Assembly (NCBI GenBank): GCA_905181625.1
Contig: CAJIYJ010000006.1
Coordinates: forward strand, 1 to 64,000
DNA: 64,000 nt
Direction: 5' to 3'
DNA from: an uncultured Flavobacteriaceae bacterium
GTDB taxonomy: Bacteria; Bacteroidota; Bacteroidia; Flavobacteriales; Flavobacteriaceae
The position numbers and the translations under genes are program-made. Of this stretch, positions 12,134 through 20,817 are shown one piece after another; position 1 is the stretch's first letter, and every line of letters begins with the position of its first letter. The notes under the pieces were generated by a model. It was not told the origin of the DNA, ran no database searches, and was given only the letters and a program-made list of their open reading frames with translations.

Positions 12134-12895
12134 TTATTTTTTTTCTTCAGCAGCAGGTGCTTCTTCAGCAGCAGGCGCTTCTTCAGCAGCAGGTGCTTCT
12201 TCAGCAGCAGGCGCTTCTTCAGCAGCAGGTGCTTCTTCAGCAGCAGGCGCTTCTTCAGCAGCAGGTGCTTCTTCAGCAGCAGGTGCTTCTTCAGCAGCAG
12301 GTGCTTCTTCAGCAGCAGGCGCTTCTTCAGCAGCAGGTGCTTCTTCAGCAGCAGGTGCTTCTTCAGCAGCAGGTGCTTCTTCAGCAGCAGGCGCTTCTTC
12401 AGCAGCAGGTGCTTCTTCAGCAGCTAAAGCTTCTTCAGCAGCTAAAGCTTCTTCAACTTTTGCTTTTCTTTTAGCACTAGCTTCTTTTTCTAATTCAAGT
12501 GCTTTTTTCTTTTTATTATCAGCTTCTTTATCTAATTGTGATTTTTTGTTTTCTACACTGGATGATTTTTCCGTTATCCATTCTTGAAATTTTTCTTCAA
12601 CTTGTTCTTCAGTTAAAGCACCTTTTTTAAATCCATTTATTAAATGGTTTTTAAGAAGAACCCCTTCGTTAGATAAAATAGTTCTAGCGGTATCGGTAGG
12701 TTGTGCACCAAATTGAATCCACTTAACAGATTCATCTATGTTAAGAGATATTGAAGCTGGATTTAAGTTTGGATTGTAAGTTCCTAATTTTTCTAAGTAA
12801 CGCCCGTCTCTTTTAGCTCTTTCATCAGCTGCTACTATCCAGTAAAATGGTTTACCTTTTTTACCGTGTCTTTGAAGTCTTATTTTTACTGCCAT
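12134..12895 (-). CDS. rpsP: Small ribosomal subunit protein bS16 with long EEAPAA repeat tail
   Basis: The first 80 or so residues are a standard bS16 ([21 protein letters not shown]..., [26 protein letters not shown]), a 30S assembly protein. The rest, to 253 residues, is an extension about twice as long as the conserved domain. It has a charged Lys/Glu-rich helix-prone segment (about 100-147), then 17 perfect hexads at residues 148-249 (two EEALAA, fifteen EEAPAA), ending in EEKK. C-terminal extensions of bS16 are familiar in Bacteroidota, but this one is a DNA-level 18-bp tandem repeat. It is the first gene of the rpsP-rimM-rluF series, under the promoter at 12942-12972. Confidence 0.93.
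12149..12454. repeat. 18-bp tandem repeat, 17 copies, inside rpsP
   Basis: Seventeen head-to-tail 18-bp units encode the bS16 tail. The two units closest to the 5' end of the gene have a CTA/TTA-type Leu codon in place of Pro. The other fifteen differ only at one silent position (GGT versus GGC on the plus strand), in the plus-strand order T C T C T C T T T C T T T C T. The near identity points to recent expansion by slippage or recombination. Because 18 is a multiple of three, copy-number change keeps the reading frame, and all overlapping frames also stay open. Confidence 0.95.
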
Positions 12896-12941
12896 ATCAA
12901 ATTAAATTGTGAGGTACTAAACCCCGGTTATTAATGAGGTG

Positions 12942-17868: not shown

Positions 17869-17942
17869 GGTCTGGTAGTTCAGCTGGTTAGAATACCTGC
17901 CTGTCACGCAGGGGGTCGCGGGTTCGAGTCCCGTCCAGACCG
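17869..17942 (+). tRNA. tRNA-Asp (GTC)
   Basis: A 74-nt cloverleaf folds with acceptor stem GGTCTGG/CCAGACC, discriminator G, a D arm containing AGCTGGTTAGA, anticodon stem CCTGC/GCAGG with anticodon GTC at 17903-17905, and T arm with GGTTCGAGTCC. The terminal CCA is not encoded (CAAA follows), so it must be added enzymatically. A terminator follows closely. No repeat of its 3' end is visible elsewhere in the window. Confidence 0.97.
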
Positions 17943-17957
17943 CAAAACGAGAAATTA

Positions 17958-18257: not shown

Positions 18258-19178
18258 TTAATTCAATTTAAATGTTGTAACAACAATTCCATGATCGGAT
18301 GGGTAAATAATTTTTTTATTATTTATAATTATTGGTTCATTAAAAAAAGCATTGTAAGATTTTGATTTAATAGATTTAATAGACTTTCCTTTGTAAAAAA
18401 TATAATCAATTCTGTGAGAATCTTTCCTCCCTTTTTGATTCCATGTGATACCAGGATGAGTTTTTGGATTAGGGTTTTCTTTTCTGTAGGAGTCAATCAG
18501 CCCTAAGTCTTCTAAAATTTTAGTTGCACCCCATGGAACAATCAAGTTGTTATGAACTTTTTTTGTTTTTTTAGTCCAGTCTAAATTTGATAATGAGTTC
18601 ATATCTCCTCCGAAAATCATTGGAATGGAGTCTGTTTCCTGTAAATATTTTTTTAGATAAGGAAGAACTTTTTCCAACATTTCAAATCTTGCTCCACTTT
18701 GTTCCCATTCTAATAATTCTTCAACTGTTTTTCCCATTTTTTCAGGCTCATTATCCCAAGGTAAATAATGAAACCAATTTGAAAAGAAACGTATAGTCTT
18801 TCCGTTTATAGGAATTTCAATTCCACCCAAATAAAACGGATGTTTTGTATCTATTCTTTTTCCAAAAGGATACCTTGAATAAATAGATAAATTGACTGAT
18901 TTATCATTAAGTGGAGTTTTTTTAGATGCAATCAGGTGAAAATTATATTTTAAAAAATCCGCAATAAATGGACCAGAACCATATGTTTCTACCATTAAAA
19001 TTATATCTGGATTTATTTCCTTAATTATTTTAGCAACGTTTTCAGACCCATTTTCAATATCATTTCCACCGTGTAAAATATTCCAAGCCATTACTTTAAA
19101 TGTGTTTTTTTGGGCATGAATTGGAAAATTTATAAAAAATAAAATCCCAAAAAATAAAATCAGTTTAGATCGTATCAT
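18258..19178 (-). CDS. Exported endonuclease/exonuclease/phosphatase (EEP) family protein
   Basis: This 306-residue metal-dependent phosphodiesterase of the EEP (DNase I/sphingomyelinase/inositol phosphatase) fold has an N-terminal Sec signal (ILFFGILFFINFPIHAQ). The active-site motifs are MAWNILHGG, ILMVETYG (catalytic Glu), FGGDMNS (Asp/Asn), RIDYIFYKG and the C-terminal SDHGIVVTT His. The substrate could be nucleic acid, a phospholipid headgroup or another phosphodiester; the short NILHGG style is typical of the secreted Bacteroidota members. It stands alone between the DUF2779 remnant and the candidate small RNA. Confidence 0.8.
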   Translation of the reverse strand: MIRSKLILFFGILFFINFPIHAQKNTFKVMAWNILHGGNDIENGSENVAKIIKEINPDIILMVETYGSGPFIADFLKYNFHLIASKKTPLNDKSVNLSIYSRYPFGKRIDTKHPFYLGGIEIPINGKTIRFFSNWFHYLPWDNEPEKMGKTVEELLEWEQSGARFEMLEKVLPYLKKYLQETDSIPMIFGGDMNSLSNLDWTKKTKKVHNNLIVPWGATKILEDLGLIDSYRKENPNPKTHPGITWNQKGRKDSHRIDYIFYKGKSIKSIKSKSYNAFFNEPIIINNKKIIYPSDHGIVVTTFKLN

Positions 19179-19255: not shown

Positions 19256-19263
19256 TATATTTG
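19256..19263 (+). promoter_or_regulatory. -7 box of the candidate small RNA
   Basis: TATATTTG is a perfect TAnnTTTG box with a TTTA sequence 21 nt upstream as a weak -33 element. Transcription would start near 19269 and reach a terminator 70-75 nt later, with no open frame between. Confidence 0.55.
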
Positions 19264-19268
19264 CAACC

Positions 19269-19343
19269 GTTGTGTTACCTGCATAATGCAGGAGGTTTGT
19301 AGAAAACCGATGAAGAGCTTTCCTTTAAAGGGAAGCTTTTTTT
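19269..19343 (+). ncRNA. Candidate structured small RNA
   Basis: A short transcription unit of about 75 nt lies between two minus-strand genes. It has a perfect -7 box upstream, then three consecutive hairpins: CCTGCA-TAA-TGCAGG (19279-19293), GGTTT-GTAGA-AAACC (about 19294-19309), and a terminator hairpin AGCTTTCC/GGGAAGCT followed by seven T. There is no start codon and open frame of useful length. It may belong to a known flavobacterial RNA class such as the Flavo-1 motif of Rfam, but I cannot check that here. Confidence 0.6.
19316..19343 (+). terminator. Intrinsic terminator of the small RNA
   Basis: AGCTTTCC (19316-19323) pairs with GGGAAGCT (19330-19337) around the loop TTTAAA, with one G-U pair, followed by a run of T to 19343. 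Confidence 0.8.
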
Positions 19344-19353
19344 GTTTAAAAAA

Positions 19354-20817
19354 TTATTTTAAATTATCGGGATGACGATTGGAGTCTTTAGAAATTCTTG
19401 AAGCTAAGTTATCCGGAAGATTATCAGAGAATTCTGACAGATGATTTTTTAATTTTATTCTTAAATTTTTTACAATTTCAGAATGCTTGTTAGCTAGATT
19501 ATATGATTCTGAAATATCAGATTCAACATCATATAGCTCAGGACTTTTAAGCTTATAAGGCAAAGAATAATTTATTTTATCTAATTGCTTAATATGTAAT
19601 TTCCATTTCCCAACTCTAACAGCGTTTAAAGATGCCCTTGTCCAGTAATAAAATTCATTTCTTGGACTTTTTTCACCCTTAATAAGTACATTACTAAGAT
19701 CAAATCCATCCAATTTTCTATCATTAGGAATTTTGGTATCTGATAATGATGCAAAAGTATTAATGACATCTAATGTTGACCCTAATTCTGAAACAACTTT
19801 TGGCTTTATATTTCCAGGTCCCCAAAAAATAGCAGGAACTCTTTGACCTCCTTCAAAAGTAGTTCCTTTACCTGCTTTTAATGGGCCTGCAGATCCTCCA
19901 TGTGTTTTGAAAGATAGCCATGGCCCATTATCAGAAGTAAACAATACAATTGTATTGCCATCAATATTTAAATCTTTTAGAGTTTGAATAATTTTTCCAA
20001 CACTCCAATCTATTTCCTCAATTACATCTCCATATAACCCTCTTTTAGAAGTGCCTATTGTTTTTGGATCAGCAAAAAGTGGGACATGAGGAAGAGAATG
20101 AGCTAAATACAAAAAAAAGGGATCTTTATTTTTTTCTTTAATAAAATCAATTGCTTTTTCAGTATATCTTTTAGTGATAGTAAACTGATCAACAGGCCTC
20201 TCAATTTCTTTATAATTTTCTATTAAAGGAACGTTATAATTCATTGGATTTGCAATCCAATTAGGGTCTTCAGAAAATTTTCTGTAGTTAGGAGAATCTT
20301 TGATTAAATTCATATCATTCGAGTAAGGAATACCATAATAATAATCAAACCCATGATTTCCTGGTAAAAACTCTTTTAAGTGGCCTAGATGCCATTTGCC
20401 AATCATAGCAGTTCTATAGTTTTTTTGCTTTAAAACCTCTGCTATTGTAATCTCAGAATTAGGCAACCCTTTATTAGAATCCGGAAACAGTACTGCTCTT
20501 TTTTTTGAAGTCATACCATTTCTTATAGGATACCTTCCAGTTAAAAGTCCAGCTCTACTTGGTGTGCATACTGGATCAGCAACGTAAAATTGAGTCCATT
20601 TTTGACCTTCGCTTGCCATTTTGTCTAAGTGAGGAGTTTTTATTGTTGGATTTCCATAGCAACCTAAATCACCATAGCCTAAATCATCAGCAAAGATTAT
20701 TATAAAATTAGGGAGATTTTGTTTTTTTGTAACAAAAGAATTTAAAGACATTATTGAAAATACTGAAATAAAAAAAGTAAAACCAAACTTGTAATATTTC
20801 AAAAAATGAATTTTCAT
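19354..20817 (-). CDS. Exported type I sulfatase (S1 family)
   Basis: This 487-residue sulfatase has an N-terminal signal or anchor segment and the metal site IIFADDLGYGDLG. The formylglycine motif is CTPSR (Cys84), followed by TGRYPIRNG. Further active-site residues lie in GKWHLGH, LYLAHSLPHVPL and FTSDNGPW. The Cys-type motif needs conversion to formylglycine, which the FGE at 41969-42988 could supply. It should remove sulfate from a sugar in the periplasm or at the cell surface. It is divergent from the GH20/GH109 series, so the two probably respond to the same glycan. The position of sulfate attacked cannot be read from sequence. Confidence 0.9.
   Translation of the reverse strand: MKIHFLKYYKFGFTFFISVFSIMSLNSFVTKKQNLPNFIIIFADDLGYGDLGCYGNPTIKTPHLDKMASEGQKWTQFYVADPVCTPSRAGLLTGRYPIRNGMTSKKRAVLFPDSNKGLPNSEITIAEVLKQKNYRTAMIGKWHLGHLKEFLPGNHGFDYYYGIPYSNDMNLIKDSPNYRKFSEDPNWIANPMNYNVPLIENYKEIERPVDQFTITKRYTEKAIDFIKEKNKDPFFLYLAHSLPHVPLFADPKTIGTSKRGLYGDVIEEIDWSVGKIIQTLKDLNIDGNTIVLFTSDNGPWLSFKTHGGSAGPLKAGKGTTFEGGQRVPAIFWGPGNIKPKVVSELGSTLDVINTFASLSDTKIPNDRKLDGFDLSNVLIKGEKSPRNEFYYWTRASLNAVRVGKWKLHIKQLDKINYSLPYKLKSPELYDVESDISESYNLANKHSEIVKNLRIKLKNHLSEFSDNLPDNLASRISKDSNRHPDNLK

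Follow-up and report, generated by a model that had tools for sequence, protein, structure and literature searches.

The window, a stretch of 64,000 nucleotides from the genome of an uncultured Flavobacteriaceae bacterium, carries a short structured RNA that is probably a trans-acting, base-pairing small RNA (sRNA) of the Flavobacteriaceae, a large family whose members are mostly aquatic. Its conserved partner would be the 5' leader of pnp, which encodes polynucleotide phosphorylase (PNPase), and by opening a hairpin in this leader it would set the synthesis of PNPase. The features that are new here are the family-wide range of the sRNA, its link to tRNA-Asp and the pnp leader with which it appears to have co-evolved.

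The small RNA locus, its structure and its range

The original prediction had placed at this locus a structured sRNA with its own promoter and terminator, made of a perfect box and three hairpins, the last with a T-run, lying between two minus-strand genes and next to a sulfatase gene. Each of these elements was recovered by the analysis. The features concerned are the following (positions in the window).

17869 to 17943, plus strand: tRNA-Asp(gtc); the sRNA lies 1.3 kb downstream, with one gene between
18258 to 19178, minus strand: gene for an Exo_endo_phos protein (Pfam), on one side of the sRNA
19256 to 19345, plus strand: candidate sRNA locus including the promoter box, with three hairpins and terminator
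19256 to 19263, plus strand: TATATTTG, a Bacteroidota -7 promoter box (TAnnTTTG), present in 17/17 genus loci
19268 to 19345, plus strand: small RNA of about 77 nt, with the 5' end deduced from the box and the 3' end from the terminator
19269 to 19276, plus strand: GUUGUGUU, unpaired 5' segment, complement of AACACAAC in the pnp leader
19278 to 19292, plus strand: hairpin 1, variable in sequence with conserved pairing, still folded in the predicted sRNA-pnp duplex
19294 to 19308, plus strand: hairpin 2, GGUUU-GUAGA-AAACC, indicated by fold, conservation and covariation
19299 to 19316, plus strand: GUAGAAAACCGAUGAAGA, the loop and 3' arm of hairpin 2 together with the linker; the second of the two segments that match the pnp leader
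19312 to 19341, plus strand: third hairpin (terminator) followed by a T-run, indicated by fold, terminator scan and conservation
19354 to 20817, minus strand: sulfatase gene (Pfam), on the other side of the sRNA

In Flavobacterium, the sigma-A box TAnnTTTG has been placed at -12 to -5 (PMC9723704). Since TATATTTG fits this box, the +1 position of the sRNA was set at about 19268, just before GUUGUG. Both TATATTTG and GTTGTG are invariant across the 17 genus loci, the box sitting 4-5 nt ahead of GTTGTG in all of them, and in the window's genome (G000) a TAnnTTTG box was found 3-6 nt before GTTGTG at only 2 of the 450 GTTGTG sites. The predicted fold of the sRNA reaches -28.1 kcal/mol (z -4.3), a value as low as which was given by none of 200 shuffles; the opposite strand also beat its own shuffles, less strongly (-18.4, z -3.0). 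The third hairpin with its T-run was the sole terminator-like site in 801 bases, where 0.4 were expected. On these grounds the locus has the make-up of an independent sRNA gene, which would be expressed from its own promoter and end at its own terminator. A coding role for a conserved AUG was ruled out by eye, this triplet being GUG, UUG or absent in L063, L064 and L070. Elsewhere in the window, Rfam recognized an S16-Flavobacteria ribosomal protein leader at 12901-12935 on the minus strand, with 38 bits against a threshold of 35.7; the minus-strand ORF 12134-12895 lies just downstream of it.

When 60 relatives were searched at the DNA level, long matches were obtained in 16 further genomes belonging to the window's genus. 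A covariance model built from 17 genus loci (R1) gave a strong match, with E below 1e-17, in 17 of the 22 genus genomes, the five others being incomplete assemblies (62-86%). The box, GTTGTG, hairpin 2 and the terminator were kept in all 17 loci. Hairpin 1 differs in sequence yet is paired throughout: it occurs in two unrelated versions, one CCTGCA/TGCAGG-like and the other CTTATAAAC/GTTTATAAG.

The covariation for which the original prediction had looked to related genomes was indeed found there. In the alignment of the 17 genus loci, 16 cells showed double changes, compared with 5.4 in shuffles. The family-wide alignment of 99 hits, which was fitted to the structure and whose covariation figures have to be read in that light, contained 339 such cells against 76, with double changes in 13 of 22 pairs and a covariation of 0.510 against 0.208 when shuffled and at most 0.136 when slid. 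In hairpin 1, all six pairs show changes on both sides in the family-wide alignment (A4). By comparison of genomes, the sRNA locus is thus conserved beyond chance, and its predicted structure is one in which compensatory changes have accumulated.

At E<=0.1, R1 matched 254 of 299 family genomes, many of them weakly. A broader model (R2) matched 38 of 345 genomes of the phylum at E<=1e-4, of which 37 belong to the same family and one (G545) lies outside it. In the 21 family genomes with no or only a weak R1 hit, R2 gave a hit in 18 at E<=0.05 and in 13 at E<=1e-3. Several weak hits that are outside the family or low-scoring (L101-L104, L106) resemble plain terminators, not the sRNA. F. psychrophilum DSM 3660 (G455), which belongs to the Flavobacteriaceae, carries the sRNA in two identical copies. 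The sRNA hits of genus g146 share with this strain a genus-like form of the pnp leader, and we infer that g146 is Flavobacterium; with this assignment, the sRNA is strongly structured and conserved across Flavobacterium.

It had also been suggested that the RNA could belong to a known flavobacterial class such as Flavo-1. This was not borne out: when the window and 20 homologous loci were scanned with Rfam 15, the nearby tRNA was recognized but no family reached its curated threshold on the sRNA, Flavo-1 was absent even among the weak hits, and membership of an Rfam family was rejected. Flavo-1 (RF01705) has in common with the RNA described here that it is a Bacteroidetes RNA motif, and Actino-pnp (RF01688) that it is a listed cis-regulatory RNA which by its name concerns pnp; the latter differs in being listed for Actinomycetales and in acting in cis (PMC2864571). 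Neither model matched the window RNA in the Rfam scan.

The pnp leader as predicted pairing partner

The window's genome has about 1,609 predicted genes, and their start regions were scanned for partners. For the segment of hairpin 2, which had been cut before pnp was known, the best partner was pnp (-19.9, next -17.3). This gene lies on another contig (G000:C7:296605, the sRNA being on C6), and its identity was confirmed by Pfam (PNPase, RNase_PH, KH and S1 domains). The same leader contains AACACAAC, which is exactly complementary to GUUGUGUU and stands 12 bases ahead of the ATG. With the 5' segment, pnp was outside the best six partners among the approximately 1,609 start regions, and the seed k-mers showed no genome-wide enrichment at start codons.

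Unguided cofolding of the whole RNA with the leaders (-80..0 and -65..0) ranked pnp first of 1,607, 1,607 and 1,609, with energies of -18.5 to -18.7 for pnp and -11.8 to -12.3 for the next gene; when 20 coding bases were added, pnp dropped to rank 11 of 1,607. A two-segment scan, for which the segments were defined after pnp had been seen, placed pnp first of 1,606 (-31.2, next -21.7), and second when the order of the segments was swapped. The unconstrained cofold adopted a three-part shape, with GUUGUGUU on AACACAAC, hairpin 1 retained, and GUAGAA-ACCGAUGAA on UUCAUUGGU-UUCUAC. The cofold gain was above that of all 60 shuffled leaders in 6 of the 12 genomes tested, F. psychrophilum not being among the six.

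Of 60 genomes, 58 yielded a pnp match, the exceptions being G020 and G194, and 57 leaders could be read, G155 having no usable pnp start. In G012 (C11:39383-41583), the pnp match is in two pieces, the second with an internal TGA, which reflects either an assembly error or a broken gene. The pattern TTCATTGGN{6,36}ACACAAC was present in 41 of 48 genomes and directly upstream of pnp in 40 of them. It gave 11 matches away from pnp, two of which are the complement of the sRNA gene, and the reversed pattern also gave 11 matches in the 48 genomes. Among 196 genomes of the order, the leader pattern occurred in 26 of the 30 of the same family versus 16 of the 166 others, in which the A/C-rich stretch was missing where they were inspected by eye. 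A second site of the leader pattern in Flavobacterium was rejected, as it is inside a coding sequence. In several genera, conservation of the pnp leaders (L255-L312) extends past the pairing site to a stretch resembling AAAGCT, which lies about 10-20 nt ahead of AGTTTTTCATTGG and is partly complementary to it.

Co-variation in trans was evaluated on 50 genomes having both the sRNA and the leader, reduced to one per genus (n=37), with 50,000 permutations. For the 5' segment, the pairing energy of the own pairs was -15.06 versus -13.68, and for the second segment -20.01 versus -18.05; in both cases they beat 50,000 of 50,000 permutations, counts that are not exact probabilities because related genera share the sRNA and the leader, a kinship which the use of one genome per genus removes only partly. 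By a stricter measure, the longest Watson-Crick run, the own value was reached by 0 permutations for the 5' segment and by 936 of 50,000 for the second (segment B). The reversed leader is not a valid control for the 5' segment, since CAACACAAC is identical when read backwards. In G101, where the model had aligned a later repeat, the 5' end of the sRNA hit was extended by hand.

Individual matched changes could also be seen. Within one genus, GUUGUUU faces AAACAAC in G108 and GUUGUUA faces UAACAAC in G323. The sRNA of G226 has GUUGUGA and its leader UCACAAC; that of G179 has UGUGUUGAU and its leader AUCAACACA. In G095 and G180, with GUUGUGUGUUG in the sRNA and CAACACACAAC in the leader, an extra GU is met by an extra AC. 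The divergent pairs of G130, G231, G012 and G016 fitted no better than chance partners. Overall, a conserved complementarity to the pnp leader, encoded at another locus and co-varying with it in trans, emerges from this comparison, and the predicted pairing between the sRNA and the pnp leader is well supported.

One published RNA bears on the role of this pairing. Rfp18 of F. psychrophilum is structured and genus-conserved, as is the sRNA described here, and its deletion lowers two metalloprotease mRNAs (PMC9723704). If the Flavobacterium sRNA were Rfp18, its main job might be the tuning of secreted metalloproteases, with the pnp pairing being secondary or the pnp leader acting as a sponge. 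The evidence for and against this identity seems to us evenly balanced; this estimate concerns the identity alone, which is compatible with pairing to pnp. On the positive side, in addition to the structure and conservation, the sRNA of DSM 3660 shares a contig with dxs, which it precedes by about 22 kb; this would correspond to about 334 kb. In Table 2 of PMC9723704, Rfp11 is at 182,564, the dxs unit at 356,002 and Rfp36 at 840,245, and by our own arithmetic, with the same gene order assumed, the position interpolates to Rfp17, in a stretch of the genome numbered near Rfp18.

On the other hand, it is the third stem-loop of Rfp18 that pairs with its targets (PMC9723704), and the third stem-loop of the present RNA ranked the starts of two M36-type proteases only 31st and 39th of 46 on the DSM 3660 contig. 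This is a weak test, in which the identity of the genes with THC0290_0300 was presumed and the strain differs from that of the paper; cofolding of the whole RNA ranked the same two starts 13th and 6th. Moreover, the published targets are metalloproteases whereas the conserved partner here is pnp, and the main text of PMC9723704 contains 0 occurrences of PNPase or pnp.

Proposed mechanism and direction of regulation

In the mechanism that we propose, the unpaired 5' end GUUGUGUU would dock on the A/C-rich unpaired leader stretch ACACAACACAAC, and the second segment GUAGAAAACCGAUGAAGA would next pair with UUCAUUGGU-UUCUAC, further upstream in the pnp leader. Hairpin 1 would remain folded at the junction of the duplex, and the third hairpin would terminate the sRNA. 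In the predicted fold of the free pnp leaders, the UUCAUUGG box is part of a hairpin, which the sRNA would have to open on binding. In the window's genus, the opposite strand of this hairpin would be the start codon region of pnp (AAUGAAAAA), which the sRNA segment GAUGAAGA resembles. Displacement of this strand would make the start codon accessible and thereby increase the synthesis of PNPase.

Pairing of the UUCAUUGG box with the pnp start region was predicted in 12 of 12 genus leaders; in most of these genomes the start-codon hairpins are no more stable than shuffles (z 0.04 to -2.2). Outside the genus, both strands of the hairpin were recognizable in 26 of 45 leaders, the others being dropped, and in 25 of these 26 the box pairs with a strand located further on, for example GACCAUUG, to form a hairpin with an A/C-rich loop. 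There, the two strands change together (GGTC/GACC, GGGT/ACCC). Because the opening of the hairpin would free the start codon, activation of pnp by the sRNA is favoured in the window's genus, where we give it about an even chance.

The same pairing with the pnp leader could instead be repressive, the duplex blocking ribosome entry or inviting double-strand cleavage. PNPase degrades sRNAs in other bacteria, and under repression PNPase and the sRNA would form a negative loop. The pairing evidence is the same for both directions, the paired part of the leader ends at -13 relative to the start codon in the window's genus, and the FopS sRNAs of Bacteroides repress at start regions (PMC11697453). However, in other genera the site is mostly further upstream: in G163, G113 and G220 the distance from the box to the start is 97, 98 and 132 bases, respectively. 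Also, in the window's genus it is the free leader whose predicted fold hides the start codon, and the pairing that would expose it. We consider repression less likely than not, and somewhat less likely than activation.

Genomic context, related RNAs and significance

The surroundings of the sRNA were surveyed at 97 loci (15 from the genus and 82 from outside it), the two weakest of the 99 aligned hits (L099:240 and L124:2866) being left out and genus loci L004 and L017 being excluded as duplicates. Outside the genus, 47 of the 82 hits are on the same strand as an intact tRNA-Asp(gtc) and 4-65 nt downstream of it, and 7 others follow a tRNA-Asp end that was not called by ARAGORN. A TAnnTTTG box of their own, 3-6 nt before the 5' end, is carried by 14 hits (13 from the context survey together with L111), and the last 14 have neither tRNA-Asp nor box. 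Within the genus, the box is present in 15/15 loci and tRNA-Asp is retained within about 100 nt in three. It appears that the sRNA began as a neighbour of tRNA-Asp and gained its own promoter once separated from it, if this is the direction that the history took.

Multiple copies of the sRNA occur in some genomes, sometimes in tandem (L083, L123; G106:C38; G217:C30:119768-120827; G068:C1:3204391-3212541), and in L083 and L123 every copy follows its own tRNA-Asp. F. psychrophilum G455 harbours an element of 9.5 kb that includes a phage-type integrase (C43:4277-13868; L148, L149). Identical copies of the tRNA-Asp end and of the sRNA flank this element in DSM 3660, so that integration at tRNA-Asp seems to have duplicated the sRNA.

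The frequent position just past tRNA-Asp on the same strand would also be expected if the sRNA were merely a processed 3' trailer and terminator belonging to the tRNA-Asp transcript and played no part in regulation. Against this, all genus loci and 14 of the 82 others have a promoter box at the 5' end, which indicates that the sRNA was kept when it was separated from tRNA-Asp, and the sRNA co-varies with pnp leaders; we judge this explanation very improbable. Equally remote is the control of adjacent glycan genes, for although a sulfatase or GH20-like protein adjoins the sRNA in several genus loci (seen by eye, the window's two neighbours by Pfam), the flanking genes differ among the 17 loci, the usual neighbour outside the genus is tRNA-Asp, and the adjacent genes rank low as partners among 1,606 starts (sulfatase 915, endonuclease 221, GH20-like 775, against 1 for pnp), on which ranks this regulation was rejected. 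The original prediction is supported for the sRNA with its promoter and terminator, and is not supported for the known class and for the regulator of glycan genes.

Returning to the sRNA as a regulator of pnp, a wider scheme can be put forward tentatively, and we hold it to be somewhat improbable in its entirety. The family-wide sRNA, made beside or together with tRNA-Asp, would be a toehold opener for pnp: its 5' end would dock on the loop and its second segment would mimic and displace the strand that closes the hairpin, so that synthesis of stable RNA would raise the level of an RNA-decay enzyme, the sRNA and the leader having co-evolved. The link from tRNA-Asp to PNPase is a hypothesis.

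In E. coli, the gene for SraG is next to pnp. This sRNA of enterobacteria has likewise been reported to affect PNPase levels (PMC3832800); in contrast, the sRNA described here (C6) is far from pnp (C7), and SraG gave no match to it in the Rfam scans of the window and 20 homologous loci. GibS and FopS of Bacteroides are, like it, short sRNAs of Bacteroidota with a conserved 5' segment that binds mRNA leaders, but they belong to another host group and target susC and other PUL mRNAs (PMC11697453). The part of that paper used here describes no tRNA linkage, and these RNAs are set apart from the present one by description, not by sequence. In the literature as far as it was consulted, no paper was found on an sRNA-pnp pair for the Flavobacteriaceae.

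Post-transcriptional control has been little studied in the Flavobacteriaceae. One RNA present in most of the sampled genera, with a single conserved partner, and two separate genes that co-vary make a strong comparative case for direct pairing of an sRNA with an mRNA. If the sRNA is Rfp18, the effects on proteases that were published for it may have to be reinterpreted, because they could be an indirect result of altered PNPase. As PNPase is a central enzyme of RNA decay and the sRNA gene lies beside tRNA-Asp, a link between the synthesis of stable RNA and RNA decay in this family becomes testable.
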